DNA of 64,000 nt from an uncultured Saprospiraceae bacterium. GTDB lineage: Bacteria; Bacteroidota; Bacteroidia; Chitinophagales; Saprospiraceae. The position numbers and the translations under genes are program-made. The notes under the pieces were generated by a model. It was not told the DNA's origin, made no database searches, and was given only the letters and a program-made list of their open reading frames with translations. How positions within the stretch are numbered: position 1 is the first letter of the stretch; each line of letters starts with the position of its first letter. Positions 27,721-47,277 of the stretch are shown piece by piece. Location of the stretch: assembly GCA_937961455.1 (NCBI GenBank), contig CALGNN010000014.1, positions 1 to 64,000 of the forward strand, read 5' to 3'.

Positions 27721-28089
27721 GGGGCTGAATTGGAATCGACAGGAAATGTAATTGACTTGTAAGCATGCCGTAGCAGGATAGTACACTACGTTAAAAATGT
27801 CTATTAACAATTTAACTGGCAATAATAACTTTGCCCTTGCTGCCTAATTCTAGGAATTAGTAGCATAGTGTGCGACCGACTTGATGTCTGATACAAAGTC
27901 GAAACGCATATCATAAACATTCAGGCTAGCGGATAAGGATGTCTCGACTTAAAAGCGAAACTCAGAGAATAAGAGTGATTTGTCGCCGCAGGTATGCCTG
28001 AATCACTTCGAAAATCCGAATACCTACTAAGCATGTAGAAAGCATTTTGGTTCTTTCTCTGGACCCGAGTTCGAATCTCGGCAGCTCCA
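27721..28089 (+). ncRNA. ssrA: Transfer-messenger RNA (tmRNA)
   Basis: The 5' end GGGGCUGAAUUGGAAUCGAC and the 3' end with T-arm GAGUUCGAAUCUC form the tRNA-like part. The acceptor stem pairs GGGGCUG with CAGCUCC (one G-U); A28089 is the discriminator, and CCA is not encoded. The internal reading frame gives the tag GNNNFALAA then TAA (27818-27847). tmRNA with SmpB releases stalled ribosomes and marks the peptide for proteolysis. The mature RNA is about 369 nt. The 3' end is duplicated just downstream. Confidence 0.96.
27818..27847 (+). other. tmRNA proteolysis tag GNNNFALAA
   Basis: Codons GGC AAT AAT AAC TTT GCC CTT GCT GCC then TAA follow the pattern of Bacteroidota tags (G-x-N-N-[YF]-ALAA). 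The Ala carried by tmRNA itself precedes the Gly. The FALAA end is the classic degradation signal for ClpXP-like proteases. Confidence 0.9.
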
Positions 28090-28210
28090 CTAAAGCAAGG
28101 CAGGCTGTGTCAGCCTTGAAAAGCAAAAAAGCAAATTCAAGTTTACTTGGGTTTGCTTTTGTTTTTTAAGGCAATGAGCGGCAGCGAATGCAGACTGACT
28201 TGTAGACTTC
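28074..28210 (+). repeat. Direct repeat copy 1: tmRNA 3' end plus terminator
   Basis: These 137 bp, from the T-loop of tmRNA through its terminator, recur 162 bp downstream at 28236-28372 with three substitutions (G/C at 28113, A/G at 28122 region, G/A at 28141 region). The repeat begins inside the tmRNA T-loop, which is where integrases of the tmRNA-targeting type usually cross over. Exact mismatch positions are by hand alignment. Confidence 0.9.
28127..28167 (+). terminator. Intrinsic terminator of tmRNA
   Basis: A 15-bp stem (28127-28141 with 28146-28160, two G-U pairs) with a TTTA loop is followed by GTTTTTT. It is placed to end the tmRNA transcript. Confidence 0.85.
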
Positions 28211-41522: not shown

Positions 41523-42719
41523 ATGATCACAGTACAAAAGGCTTTAGACATACTCCGAGAAAACCTACAAGATTTTGGCACGGAGAAAATCCCACTTAGT
41601 AAGGCAAGTGAAAGAATTTTAGCTGAATCATTGAGTGCTGATCGTGACCTTCCGCCTTATGATAGGATTACCATGGATGGCATATGCATTGCATATGATT
41701 CTTACAAAAAGGGATCTAGATCTTGGAACATTCAAGAAATTGCAGCAGCTGGATTCAGTAAAAAGAACTTACATAATTCTACGGATTGCATAGAGTGCAT
41801 GACTGGTGCTATTATGCCATCTAATGCTGATACTGTAATAAGATATGAGGATCTCATCATCGAAAACAATATTGCTTCTTTAATTCCAGATGTCATTGTT
41901 AAAGATCAACAAAATGTCCATTTTAAAGGTATTGATCGAAAGCTAGGAGAAATCATTGTTCATCCGAATGTCGCAATGAGTCCAGCAGAGCTTGGCGTCG
42001 CAGCAACTATTGGCAAGCATGAAATTTTGGTAAAAAGATTACCTGAGATCATGATTATTTCAACCGGAGATGAACTGGTGGACATAGACCAAAAACCCTT
42101 AGACCACCAAATTAGAAAGTCAAACATAAGTCGCATACAATCAAGTCTTTTATCCTTTGGTATTGCAGCAAAAACAGATCATTTATTAGATGATCAAGAA
42201 GCTATTAAAGTAAAAATTGACAATTACTTAAAAGCATTTGACATCATCATCTTGAGTGGAGGAGTGTCAAAAGGCAAATACGATTTCATACCATCAGTTA
42301 TGGAATCCTTGGGTGTCAAAAAATTATTCCATAAAATAAAACAGCGACCAGGGAAACCCTTTTGGTTTGGAAAAACTGACGAATGCACCATCTTTGCTTT
42401 CCCAGGCAATCCTGTTTCAAGCTTCCTTTGTATGCAAAAATATTTCATGTATTGGATGGCACTTTGCTTGCAGAATAAAAGTGAATTCAACTCCTTTGGT
42501 ATGCTCACGGAGGATGTGTTTTTTCAACCTGAATTAGAATATTTTTTGGAAGTAAAATTGAGCATGAATGAACAAGCTCAAATTTTAGCCACACCATTTA
42601 AAGGAAATGGATCTGGTGATTTGGCCAATTTAGTTAAAGCCGATGCCTTCATTCAATTGCCTATCAATAAAAGTCATTTCAAAAAAGGAGAAGTGTATCC
42701 ATTACTGCAATACCGTTGA
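41523..42719 (+). CDS. moeA: Molybdopterin molybdotransferase
   Basis: Inserts molybdenum into adenylated molybdopterin. The 398-aa length and blocks fit: DRDLPPYDRITMDGIC, ECMTGAIMPSNADTVIRYED, ISTGDELVD, IILSGGVSKGKYDFIPSVME, and FPGNPVSSFLCMQKYF. It is 9 bp after moaA, so the two form one transcript. The gene ends 200 bp before trpE, and a leader peptide with an attenuator lies between. Confidence 0.94.
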   Translation: MITVQKALDILRENLQDFGTEKIPLSKASERILAESLSADRDLPPYDRITMDGICIAYDSYKKGSRSWNIQEIAAAGFSKKNLHNSTDCIECMTGAIMPSNADTVIRYEDLIIENNIASLIPDVIVKDQQNVHFKGIDRKLGEIIVHPNVAMSPAELGVAATIGKHEILVKRLPEIMIISTGDELVDIDQKPLDHQIRKSNISRIQSSLLSFGIAAKTDHLLDDQEAIKVKIDNYLKAFDIIILSGGVSKGKYDFIPSVMESLGVKKLFHKIKQRPGKPFWFGKTDECTIFAFPGNPVSSFLCMQKYFMYWMALCLQNKSEFNSFGMLTEDVFFQPELEYFLEVKLSMNEQAQILATPFKGNGSGDLANLVKADAFIQLPINKSHFKKGEVYPLLQYR

Positions 42720-42752: not shown

Positions 42753-42782
42753 CAATATAATTTTTTCCATCTTGCAATTGAT

Positions 42783-42848
42783 ATGAAAATTATGATAAAT
42801 AAAAATTGGTGGTGGCTTAATACATTCGATAAATCTCGTCGTGATTAA
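42783..42848 (+). CDS. trpL: trp operon leader peptide with three consecutive Trp codons
   Basis: A 21-codon frame encodes MKIMINKNWWWLNTFDKSRRD, with TGG TGG TGG at 42807-42815 and TAA at 42846-42848; an internal ATG at 42792 is an alternative start. Three tandem Trp codons in a tiny frame just upstream of a terminator and trpE are the classic design of a leader that senses charged tRNA-Trp. The stop codon falls in the second pairing segment, so a terminating ribosome would favour termination. Not annotated by length alone, but well supported by context. Confidence 0.88.
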   Translation: MKIMINKNWWWLNTFDKSRRD

Positions 42849-42885
42849 GTACGCCAATTATTAAAATATATAAAGCGGCTTGTCG
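42804..42885 (+). promoter_or_regulatory. Pairing segments of the trp attenuator (1:2 and 2:3)
   Basis: Segment 1 (42804-42811, overlapping the first Trp codons) pairs with segment 2 (42852-42859) over 8 bp including one G-U. Segment 2 (42847-42854) can instead pair with segment 3 (42875-42881) as an AAG/CTT plus CGC/GCG antiterminator. A ribosome stalled on the Trp codons would block 1:2 and free segment 2 for 2:3, preventing the 3:4 terminator. Pairings were found by hand and not energy-tested. Confidence 0.65.
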
Positions 42886-42908
42886 AAACACGACAAGCCG
42901 CTTTTTTT
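42872..42908 (+). terminator. Attenuator terminator (segments 3:4) of the trp operon
   Basis: AAAGCGGCTTGTCG (42872-42885) pairs perfectly with 42891-42904 around loop AAACA, followed by seven T residues (42902-42908). It lies only 10 bp before the trpE ATG, so it is a regulatory terminator rather than a gene end: moeA stops 150 bp earlier. A TTG inside this hairpin (42880) is in the trpE frame but is unlikely to be its start. Confidence 0.92.
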
Positions 42909-42918
42909 ATGGCTAATT

Positions 42919-44295
42919 ATGAATATTAAGATTAATGCAATTAAACTGATCAGTGATAAAACCACTCCAGTTAGAGCTTTTACCATTTTAAGAGACAAAT
43001 TCCCTGAAGGCCTGCTTTTGGAAAGTAGCGATTATAAGGATGCTGAAAATAGTCGAAGCTTCCTTTGCTTTGATTGTATGAGCTCCATTAGAGTAAAACA
43101 AGGAAAGGCAATGATTCATAAATTTGACGGCTTATTTGAAAGCCATCCTATAGCAGAGGGACTTGAGGCATTCTTTCAATCTGTAAGTGTCGACAAATCA
43201 TCCCCTTATGCTTCAATGGTGGGATTCTTTGGATTCACTGCTTATGATGCGATCCAATATTTTGAAGATGTACGTTTATCGAAAGAAAAAAGATCAATGG
43301 ATCTTGATGAAATGAGATATGGTTTTTATCGCTTTCAAATCATCATCAATCATTTTAATGAAGAATTGTTAGTCATAGAAAATCAACCTGAGGGTCAAGC
43401 ATCAAGAATGAAAGAAATTCTCGAAATGGTTGAATCTCCAAATGCAACCAGCTATTCATTTAAATTGGAAGACGAATTCATTTCCAATACGAGCGATGAG
43501 GCTTTCATGGAGATGGTCACTAAGGGCAAAGAACATTGCCAAAGAGGTGATGTCTTCCAAGTTGTCTTGGCAAGACGTTTTGCACAAAAATACAAAGGGG
43601 ATGAATTTAATGTATACAGAAGTCTTCGGAGTATCAACCCATCGCCTTATTTGTTTTATTTCAATTTTGGAGATTACAGCCTATTTGGAAGCAGCCCAGA
43701 AGCACAAATCATCGTAAAGGATCATAAGGCACAGATCCATCCGATTGCTGGTACTTACCGACGTACTGGAGACGATGAAAAGGACCGCAAAAAAGCACAA
43801 GAATTATTCAAAGATGAAAAAGAAAACGCGGAGCATATCATGCTGGTAGATTTAGCTAGAAATGATTTAGGAAGAAATGGAAAAAATATTGAATTAAAAA
43901 AACTCAAGGAGATTCAATTTTTCAGTCACGTCATTCATCTTACTTCAGTTGTTGAAGCAAGCTTAGATAGCATGGATAATTCTAGGCAAATATTCCAAGA
44001 CACCTTCCCTGCCGGGACCCTTTCAGGAGCGCCGAAAGTGAGGGCCATGCAAATCATTGATGAATTGGAAAAGGAAAACAGATCATTTTATGGTGGAGCG
44101 TTAGGGTTCTTTGGATTGGATGGTAGCATCAATCATGCAATCATCATTCGCTCATTTTTAGCAAAAAACAATTACCTCTATTTCCAAGCTGGCGCGGGAG
44201 TTGTCATTAAATCTGATGAACAAAAAGAATTAGAAGAAATCAATAATAAGCTCGCAGCATTAAGAGCAGCGATTAAAAAAGCAGAGCTGATATGA
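42919..44295 (+). CDS. trpE: Anthranilate synthase component I
   Basis: Converts chorismate to anthranilate with TrpG supplying ammonia. The start is ATG 42919. The feedback motif LLLESSDYKD (Trp-binding LLES) lies near the N-terminus, so Trp inhibition is expected. Catalytic blocks follow: FQVVLARRFAQ, PYLFYFNFGDYSLFGSSPE, PIAGTYRRTG, DLARNDLGR, and AGTLSGAPKVRAMQIIDELE. The 459-aa length fits. It overlaps trpG by 4 bp (ATGA), giving coupled synthesis of the two subunits. Confidence 0.96.
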   Translation: MNIKINAIKLISDKTTPVRAFTILRDKFPEGLLLESSDYKDAENSRSFLCFDCMSSIRVKQGKAMIHKFDGLFESHPIAEGLEAFFQSVSVDKSSPYASMVGFFGFTAYDAIQYFEDVRLSKEKRSMDLDEMRYGFYRFQIIINHFNEELLVIENQPEGQASRMKEILEMVESPNATSYSFKLEDEFISNTSDEAFMEMVTKGKEHCQRGDVFQVVLARRFAQKYKGDEFNVYRSLRSINPSPYLFYFNFGDYSLFGSSPEAQIIVKDHKAQIHPIAGTYRRTGDDEKDRKKAQELFKDEKENAEHIMLVDLARNDLGRNGKNIELKKLKEIQFFSHVIHLTSVVEASLDSMDNSRQIFQDTFPAGTLSGAPKVRAMQIIDELEKENRSFYGGALGFFGLDGSINHAIIIRSFLAKNNYLYFQAGAGVVIKSDEQKELEEINNKLAALRAAIKKAELI

Positions 44296-44864
44296 AGAAA
44301 TTAATGATCTTGGATAATTATGATTCCTTTACTTATAATTTAGTTCAGTATGTACTTGAACTTACAGAGGAAGTACCAGATGTATATAGAAATGATAAAA
44401 TTTCATTGGAAGACGTTGATGCATATGAAAGTATTATTCTTTCTCCCGGCCCTGGTATACCTGAAGAAGCAGGTATTTTACTACCACTCATCAAACAATA
44501 CGCACCAACTAAAAAAATCTTAGGCGTCTGCTTAGGACATCAAGCCATTGGTGAAGCTTTTGGTGCAAAACTGCTCAATCTTGAAAGTGTATTTCATGGT
44601 GTGGCTACAGATATGTATCAATCAGAAGAAGATGATCCACTTTACAAGAATATTCCAAAGCAATTCAAGGCTGGAAGATATCACAGTTGGGTTATTGAAA
44701 AATCAACTTTACCTGAAGAATTTATTGTAAACTGTAAAGATGCAGATGATGAAATCATGGGAATAAGACATAAAAGTTTACCCATTTTTGGGGTCCAATT
44801 CCACCCTGAATCAATCTTAACCGAAAATGGCAAAACGCTTCTCAAAAACTTTTTAGCCTATTAA
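44292..44864 (+). CDS. trpG: Anthranilate synthase component II (glutamine amidotransferase)
   Basis: Glutaminase subunit. The triad is visible: Cys80 in GVCLGHQAIGEAFG, His171 and Glu173 in VQFHPESIL. The oxyanion block SPGPGIPEEAG is present. Length 190 aa, no fusion to trpD. It starts inside the end of trpE and is followed one base later by trpD. In the absence of another copy it may also serve p-aminobenzoate synthase (PabA role); that is inference. Confidence 0.95.
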   Translation: MKKLMILDNYDSFTYNLVQYVLELTEEVPDVYRNDKISLEDVDAYESIILSPGPGIPEEAGILLPLIKQYAPTKKILGVCLGHQAIGEAFGAKLLNLESVFHGVATDMYQSEEDDPLYKNIPKQFKAGRYHSWVIEKSTLPEEFIVNCKDADDEIMGIRHKSLPIFGVQFHPESILTENGKTLLKNFLAY

Positions 44865-44865
44865 A

Positions 44866-45852
44866 ATGAAAGAAATATTACACTACTTATTCAATCACAA
44901 TAGTCTATCAGAGGCGCAAGCTTATGATATTTTAAAAAGCATAACCGAAGGAAAATATAATGAAATCCAAACGGCCTCTTTTCTAACCGTATTCCAAATG
45001 CGAGACATTACAGAAGCTGAAATGAAGGGATTTCGCAGAGCCTTATGGGAACTTTGTATACCCATGGATACTGAAGGGCAAGACACCATTTGTGTATGCG
45101 GTACAGGTGGAGATGGCAAGAATACATTCAACATATCAACACTGAGCTCGTTTATTGTAGCTGGAGCTGGATACAAGGTAACCAAGCATGGCAACTATGC
45201 TGTTTCAAGCAATTGTGGCTCAAGCAATGTATTAGAAGCATTAGGCTATCAGTTTACAAGTAACACAGATCAGTTAAAAAAACAATTAGATGAGGCTAAT
45301 ATTTGCTTCTTACATGCGCCTCTTTTTCATCCTGCTATGAAGCAAGTAGCATCGACTCGAAAGCAATTAAAAGTTAAGACCTTTTTCAATATGCTAGGCC
45401 CTTTGATTAATCCAGCAAGACCAAGCCATCAATTTACGGGTGTTTTTAATTTGAAAACTTTAAGACTGTACTCATACTTGTTAGAAGATAGCAATACGTC
45501 CTTCAGCGTTGTACATTCTTTAGATGGATATGATGAAATATCACTAACAGGAGCTTTTAAAATTGCACAAAACAAAGGAGCAAGTACCTTCACTCCAGAG
45601 GAGATTGGTTTTAATACCTTAGATCCTAAGCTTATTCATGGAACTGATGATGTGCAATCAAACGCCGCTTTATTTACAAAGATTTTAAAAAATGAAGGCA
45701 CAGAAGCTCAAGCACAGGTAGTAGTAGCAAATGCGAGTATGGCCATTCAGACAATGGAAGAAAATTTAAGTTTTGAAGATTGTCGAGCAAAGGCAAAAGA
45801 ATCCTTAGTTTCTGGAAATGCTTATCGAGCACTTAAAAATTTAACTTCATGA
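44866..45852 (+). CDS. trpD: Anthranilate phosphoribosyltransferase
   Basis: Transfers phosphoribose from PRPP to anthranilate. The PRPP-loop CGTGGDGKNTFNISTLSSF, the KHGNYAVSSNCGSSNVLEALG block and LGPLINPARPSHQFTGVF (anthranilate site) are intact. At 328 aa it is a stand-alone enzyme. Its stop overlaps the trpC start (ATGA), as at trpE/trpG, so these genes are translationally coupled. Confidence 0.95.
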   Translation: MKEILHYLFNHNSLSEAQAYDILKSITEGKYNEIQTASFLTVFQMRDITEAEMKGFRRALWELCIPMDTEGQDTICVCGTGGDGKNTFNISTLSSFIVAGAGYKVTKHGNYAVSSNCGSSNVLEALGYQFTSNTDQLKKQLDEANICFLHAPLFHPAMKQVASTRKQLKVKTFFNMLGPLINPARPSHQFTGVFNLKTLRLYSYLLEDSNTSFSVVHSLDGYDEISLTGAFKIAQNKGASTFTPEEIGFNTLDPKLIHGTDDVQSNAALFTKILKNEGTEAQAQVVVANASMAIQTMEENLSFEDCRAKAKESLVSGNAYRALKNLTS

Positions 45853-46649
45853 GTATTTTAGATGAAATTGTTGAACATAAGCAACAAGAAGTAGCCATTA
45901 AAAAAAGTCAAATCAACAAAAGCGCCCTTGAGGCAAGCGTCTATTACTCAAGTACTTCCCTATCACTATATCATGCACTACAAGAAAGTGACAATTATGG
46001 AATCATTGCAGAGATCAAAAAAAAATCACCCTCAAAAAAGAATATTTTCTTAGATGCTGATCCAGAAGCAATAGCCATTGCTTATCAAAATGCGGGAGCG
46101 TCCGCCATTAGTATATTAACTGATGAAAAGTATTTTGGTGGCAGTGACCTATTTATAGCTCAGGTTAAGGACACTGTTCAAATACCCATTTTAAGAAAAG
46201 AGTTTATCGTAGATCATTATCAAGTTACCGAATCAAAGGCTTTAGGTGCAGATGCCATACTATTAATCTGTGAATGTTTAGAAAAGTCACTTTTGCATGA
46301 GCTGTTTGCGCATGCCACAGAATTAGGATTAAGCGTTTTATTAGAGTTGTACACCTTCGATCAACTGGATAAAATTCCCTCTGAAGCAAATGTTATCGGT
46401 ATCAACAATCGAAACTTGAAGAATATGCAAGTTGATATCAACCATGCTTTAGAAATTGCTAATGAACTTCCTGAACATGTACTTAAAGTGGCGGAAAGTG
46501 GAATTTCAGACCCTAAAGAAATTGTAAACTTCCTTCAAAATGATTACAAGGCCTTCTTGATTGGTGAATATTTTATGAAAAGTGGGAATCCGGGTATTAC
46601 TTGTGGGAATTTTATCAATCAAATCAAACAATTGATGGATGAAGCATAA
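45849..46649 (+). CDS. trpC: Indole-3-glycerol-phosphate synthase
   Basis: TIM-barrel enzyme that closes the indole ring. Seen are AEIKKKSPSKKNIF (catalytic Lys), SAISILTDEKYFGGSDLF, PILRKEFIVDHYQV, ADAILLICECL, VIGINNRNLKNMQV and VAESGISDPKEI. Length 266 aa, single function; trpF is a separate gene that overlaps its end by 11 bp. Confidence 0.95.
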   Translation: MSILDEIVEHKQQEVAIKKSQINKSALEASVYYSSTSLSLYHALQESDNYGIIAEIKKKSPSKKNIFLDADPEAIAIAYQNAGASAISILTDEKYFGGSDLFIAQVKDTVQIPILRKEFIVDHYQVTESKALGADAILLICECLEKSLLHELFAHATELGLSVLLELYTFDQLDKIPSEANVIGINNRNLKNMQVDINHALEIANELPEHVLKVAESGISDPKEIVNFLQNDYKAFLIGEYFMKSGNPGITCGNFINQIKQLMDEA

Positions 46650-47277
46650 ACAAATGAAAGTTTGTGGGATGCGTAATGTTGAAAACATCCAACAAATACT
46701 TAAATCAAATATTGACTATATCGGTTTCATATTTTATGAAAAATCTAGCAGAAATGTGAAGGATTCTCAAGCAACAAAATTTGCTCATTTAGATTTTGGG
46801 AACACAAAGAAAATTGGGGTTTTTGTTGATGAGAAAATCGAGATTGTAAAAGATAAAGTTGAAAAATTTAAGCTTGATGGCGTTCAATTGCATGGAGATG
46901 AAAGTCCCGACTATTGCAGTGCACTCAGCAAAGATCTTTTGGTTTTTAAAGCTATTGCTATTAAATCTAGGCAAGATTTTGATGCTGCCGATGCCTATCA
47001 TGACAAAGTAGCTATGATGCTATTTGACACTAAATCAGACAAACTAAAAGGCGGAACAGGTAAAAAATTTGATTGGTCATTACTCGAATCTTATAAGGGA
47101 CCTACTCCATTCCTATTGAGCGGAGGAATACAGCCAAGTGATATCGACATCTTGAAAACATTTATGCACCCGTATTTTGCAGGTGTGGATTTGAATAGTG
47201 GTTTTGAAATCAGTCCAGCACTCAAAAATGAAAACCTTATTACTGCTTTCACAAAGGCATTTAAAGCCAATAAATAG
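46639..47277 (+). CDS. trpF: Phosphoribosylanthranilate isomerase
   Basis: Isomerises phosphoribosylanthranilate. The N-terminal strand KQMKVCGMRNVEN carries the catalytic Cys; GVFVDE, DGVQLHGDES and the phosphate site LSGGIQPSDI plus GVDLNSGFE (catalytic Asp) follow. The start at 46639 overlaps trpC; an ATG at 46654 would also work but shorten the first strand. It is the last trp gene here: no trpB or trpA follows, so these must lie elsewhere. Confidence 0.94.
   Translation: MKHKQMKVCGMRNVENIQQILKSNIDYIGFIFYEKSSRNVKDSQATKFAHLDFGNTKKIGVFVDEKIEIVKDKVEKFKLDGVQLHGDESPDYCSALSKDLLVFKAIAIKSRQDFDAADAYHDKVAMMLFDTKSDKLKGGTGKKFDWSLLESYKGPTPFLLSGGIQPSDIDILKTFMHPYFAGVDLNSGFEISPALKNENLITAFTKAFKANK

Follow-up and report, generated by a model that had tools for sequence, protein, structure and literature searches.

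In Escherichia coli, the stop codon of the trp leader (trpL) lies between segments 1 and 2, and segment 3 remains on the 5' side of the terminator. Attenuators of this kind are said to have been predicted in Bacteroidetes in a comparative study by Vitreschak and colleagues in 2004.

For this phylum, the Bacteroid-trp family (Rfam RF01692) goes back to Weinberg et al. (2010), where it appears among the probable cis-regulatory RNAs of Bacteroidetes (PMC2864571). A 2019 paper on Flavobacterium psychrophilum placed Bacteroid-trp upstream of the trp operon and likened it to the E. coli leader (PMC6414381), and a 2021 transcriptome of that species gave strong indications of attenuation by leader peptides at amino-acid operons, with trp unnamed in the main text (PMC9723704). 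A sequence-only reading of the DNA analysed here had been uncertain how well trp attenuation was documented in Bacteroidota; its description as RF01692 (PMC2864571) and in F. psychrophilum (PMC6414381) settles the matter.

We consider that the leader before trpE in our window, that is, the whole stretch of 64,000 nucleotides under analysis, is very probably a ribosome-mediated (classical) transcription attenuator of trpEGDCF, of the known Bacteroid-trp type. Searches at curated Rfam thresholds return no match for the leader (the sole Rfam match in the window at those thresholds is a tmRNA gene at 27721-28092). With a permissive threshold RF01692 emerges, with an E-value of 5.3e-5 over the stretch searched and a score one bit under the gathering cut-off of 49:

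42763..42884, forward strand: match to RF01692 (Bacteroid-trp), 48.0 bits, model positions 1-131 of 131

The match lies upstream of trp biosynthesis genes in a member of the Bacteroidota, probably from the family Saprospiraceae, and contains a Trp-codon leader ORF, which is the context of the family. It is the only significant RF01692 match in the genome; a second (C137, 29.7 bits, E 0.5) was rejected, since it consists of a gene end with a terminator behind it and lacks a Trp run. The window's leader and RF01692 share phylum, place before trp genes, Trp leader ORF, 1:2 hairpin and a conserved GGCUUGUC at the 3' end. The model, however, stops inside the 5' arm of the terminator, so that the complete terminator and the antiterminator fall outside it. 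The window copy is a slightly divergent, near-threshold homologue that is unlisted, and not a new system. F. psychrophilum likewise has a Bacteroid-trp element upstream of its trp operon (PMC6414381; PMC9723704), but it belongs to a different Bacteroidota family and is likened here by description.

The leader of trpEGDCF and its pairings

The elements of the locus are as follows.

42783..42848, forward strand: leader peptide ORF MKIMINKNWWWLNTFDKSRRD, 21 codons, ATG at 42783, stop codon TAA at 42846-42848
42804..42859, forward strand: 1:2 hairpin, 42804-42811 with 42852-42859 and an inner stem of 42815-42825 with 42841-42850
42838..42894, forward strand: 2:3 antiterminator, from duplex prediction, swap test and covariation
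42872..42908, forward strand: 3:4 intrinsic terminator, 14 bp, loop AAACA, seven T
42919..44295, forward strand: trpE, anthranilate synthase component I, by profile; first gene of trpEGDCF
44292..44864, forward strand: trpG, anthranilate synthase component II, by profile
44866..45852, forward strand: trpD, anthranilate phosphoribosyltransferase, by profile
45849..46649, forward strand: trpC, indole-3-glycerol phosphate synthase, by profile
46639..47277, forward strand: trpF, phosphoribosylanthranilate isomerase, by profile

The best profile of trpE is anthranilate synthase component I, at a score under the strict cut-off of that model. A six-codon ORF (MANYEY, window 42909-42929) overlaps the trpE start and is probably a chance occurrence.

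The sequence-only reading had described a 21-residue leader with three consecutive Trp codons, a stop codon within segment 2, a 1:2 pairing, a 3:4 terminator with seven T and a trpE start 10 bp past the T run, and all of these stand. The Trp codons occupy 42807-42815, and the 1:2 pairing is present in the minimum free energy (MFE) structure, where the inner stem extends it. The terminator pairs 42872-42885 with 42891-42904 around a loop at 42886-42890, its T run (42902-42908) ending shortly before the trpE ATG. These are the elements by which a classical attenuator is recognised: a Trp-run leader ORF, exclusive 1:2, 2:3 and 3:4 pairings and an intrinsic terminator before the first structural gene. 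The MFE of the 161-nt leader region is -45.4 kcal/mol against a mean of -26.3 for shuffled sequences (z -5.7, a value that no shuffle out of 200 reached), and two terminator-like sites, one per strand, were found against 0.1 expected.

The 2:3 pairing, claimed earlier without coordinates, can be placed: 42838-42843 pair with 42889-42894 (loop and start of the 3' arm), and 42846-42850 and 42852-42854 with 42875-42882 (terminator 5' arm). The partners of segment 2 comprise 8 bp in the 5' arm, plus two bases in the loop and four in the 3' arm. A model in which segment 2 pairs with the terminator loop alone was dropped because duplex prediction adds the 5' arm and because, in families f21 and f24, segment 2 pairs almost solely with that arm. 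Since the antiterminator duplex (-13.7 kcal/mol) falls short of the completed terminator (-23.9 kcal/mol) in stability, the choice between them must be kinetic, with the antiterminator acting during transcription.

The window resembles E. coli trpL in its short leader with consecutive Trp codons, in having a terminator before trpE and in the mutual exclusion of its three pairings. Unlike trpL, it has three Trp codons instead of two, a stop codon within segment 2 and an antiterminator that reaches the terminator loop and 3' arm. The genomes differ too: TrpR was not found in that of the window, and trpBA is located elsewhere.

Conservation and covariation across Bacteroidota

We collected trpE homologues from relatives, from named genomes and from a phylum-wide draw, and scanned the upstream DNA for a Trp-run ORF followed by a terminator. 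In the phylum-wide sample, 91 of the 97 loci examined have both before trpE, so the arrangement is not due to chance. Four of the six remaining loci (L129, L142, L162 and L167) follow an apparent trpB end; thus trpE is not the first gene there. In the operon of family f31 that has trpB first, the leader stands before trpB: an RF01692 match (L051, from the genome of L162) lies upstream of that gene and encodes MRSILVNTYWWRYLQLNKS.

No element of the leaders is more constant than the Trp run. Among 126 leaders, 104 have a longest run of three codons, 4 of four and 15 of two, so that three or four consecutive Trp codons occur in 108. Four leaders from Pedobacter and family f23 (L036, L150, L156 and L158) have separated Trp codons (WQW, WLW) and no run, and at L156 the scan found no terminator. 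Two records titled as Fusobacteriaceae metagenome-assembled genomes, outside Bacteroidota (L037 and L038), carry Trp-run leaders beginning MRRIANLWWWTIEY and MRRVAKLWWWTIEY, then terminators, before trpE. RF01692 itself matches in 30 of 296 phylum genomes, in a search with stricter filters and a draw that overlaps that of the trpE loci without being identical to it, and 27 of these 30 are in family f25. Trp-run leaders were found in many families besides f25, and the model therefore misses most such leaders.

Upstream of the leader ORF, a tentative promoter element was found:

42758..42765, forward strand: best match to TAnnTTTG, the Bacteroidota -7 promoter element (TAATTTTT, 5 of 6), by consensus scan; 17 nt before the leader ATG

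In the 45 nt that precede the ATG, 116 of 126 leaders have a site matching five or all six of the consensus positions, versus 54 of 126 in shuffled sequence (consensus scan). The element lies very close to the leader ATG (for example, in L006 and L017), with a spacing of 2-11 nt in about half of the cases and 13-23 nt in most others. Judging from these positions, many leader ORFs may start at or near the RNA 5' end.

Do the pairings themselves persist? In a swap test across 83 genera, which ignores shared ancestry, each segment 2 was paired with its own terminator and with terminators from other genera. Own partners were better by a mean of 5.4 kcal/mol (z -15.8; none of 5000 permutations as good), and the corresponding 1:2 test, with the same genera and the same disregard of kinship, gave z -12.5. 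Control comparisons of four kinds (reversal of one or the other partner, a stretch before the ATG and a stretch beyond the terminator) stayed at z -0.6 to -1.9, so the antiterminator signal is not explained by a common base composition. In an alignment of 22 leaders, mostly from the window's family and with the structure taken from its members, the core antiterminator helix shows two-sided changes at all seven pairs, and the terminator at 11 of 15. The antiterminator covariation score is 0.406 against 0.249 in shuffles, none of 500 reaching 0.406. At three of the seven pairs the columns involved belong to the loop and not to the terminator stem; these also show two-sided changes. Shared ancestry can inflate such counts, but controls in which the partner is slid by one column keep that ancestry and score far lower, pairing falling from 85% to 54% or less.

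Comparison of orthologous leaders, the check that the sequence-only reading had proposed, found the stems and the Trp run conserved with compensatory changes. A lack of conservation in relatives, which it had named as counting against it, is the opposite of what was found, since Trp runs and pairings are kept; its reading of the locus as ribosome-mediated trp attenuation is supported by both. The same data bear on the suggestion that the hairpin is the terminator of upstream moeA and the WWW ORF accidental. That gene ends at 42719, on the same strand and about 150 nt before the terminator, yet ORF, Trp run and terminator recur before trpE in many families and segment 2 covaries with the terminator, which makes an origin as moeA terminator highly improbable.

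We also considered whether the leader peptide might govern translation of trpE, through reinitiation or start-site masking, and not its transcription. The trpE start is just 10 nt past the T run, and Bacteroidetes often have leader genes a short way before structural genes (PMC4833913). However, 70 nt separate the leader stop codon from the trpE ATG, far more than the 11-14 bp at which spacings peak in that paper (PMC4833913). Moreover, a long GC-rich hairpin followed by seven T characterises an intrinsic terminator, and in relatives anything from about 15 to 220 nt lies between the terminator and trpE. Control of translation is accordingly very unlikely, and we retain transcription attenuation.

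The geometry of the antiterminator differs among families. Mean numbers of pairs in the terminator 5' arm, loop and 3' arm are 8.0, 4.2 and 2.3 in f25 and 10.2, 4.0 and 3.2 in f1, compared with 9.1, 1.3 and 0.8 in f21 and 11.9, 0.9 and 0.6 in f24. The antiterminator is thus conventional in some families and loop-capturing in others; its passage through the terminator loop into the 3' arm in f1 and f25 is a modest structural variation. A broader proposition is that, in two large Bacteroidota families, capture of the 5' arm, the loop and the start of the 3' arm lets the end of the leader ORF block terminator nucleation, a lineage-wide variant of classical attenuation in which the leader ORF is often at or almost at the RNA 5' end. 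We find this about evenly balanced between true and false.

Proposed mechanism and its meaning

The stalling of ribosomes, premature termination and the response to tryptophan are inferred from the arrangement of the leader, with uncharged tRNA-Trp as the putative signal for control of trpEGDCF. When charged tRNA-Trp is ample, the ribosome would reach the stop codon at 42846-42848 and cover segment 2, which after ribosome release would be held by the 1:2 hairpin. With segment 2 covered or held, the 3:4 terminator would form and RNA polymerase would halt before trpE. When charged tRNA-Trp is scarce, the ribosome would stall at the three Trp codons, some 25-30 nt upstream of the stop codon, and break the 1:2 pairing. 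The freed segment 2 (42838-42854) could then pair with the terminator 5' arm, part of the loop and the beginning of the 3' arm; no terminator would form and trpEGDCF would be transcribed. Estimated from usual footprint sizes, a ribosome on the last Trp codon would cover the leader to about 42828 and leave 42838-42854 free, whereas one at the stop codon would cover the segment.

Could another sensor, a protein or tryptophan itself, act on the leader, with the ORF merely contributing? The unusual degree to which the window's family conserves the terminator sequence (GGCTTGTCG...CGGCAAGCC) might point to the binding of some factor. Yet two competing pairings constrain the terminator, which can account for its conservation, and the Trp run is, as noted, the most constant element. 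Searches for TrpR (PF01371), TRAP (PF02081) and T-box (RF00230) found none in this genome, which is about 96% complete, with positive controls in all three. A sensor other than the translating ribosome is, in our judgement, extremely unlikely. Elsewhere in the genome, trpB and trpA lie on a different contig from trpEGDCF. A search for an attenuator of trpBA found no Trp-run leader, trpB beginning 47 nt past another ORF, which leaves trpEGDCF as the one trp operon found with such an element.

Taken as an attenuator, this locus is for the field an extension and no surprise, an ordinary but well-supported further example of a described kind. New here are the wider spread of such leaders in the phylum, the loop-capturing antiterminator of f1 and f25, the TAnnTTTG motif, often found near the leader ATG, and a trpBA without such a leader. 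The leaders and their covariation can be used to build a better covariance model. Across the phylum, they indicate that much of Bacteroidota usually controls trpE by Trp-codon attenuation, well past the reach of the RF01692 model.
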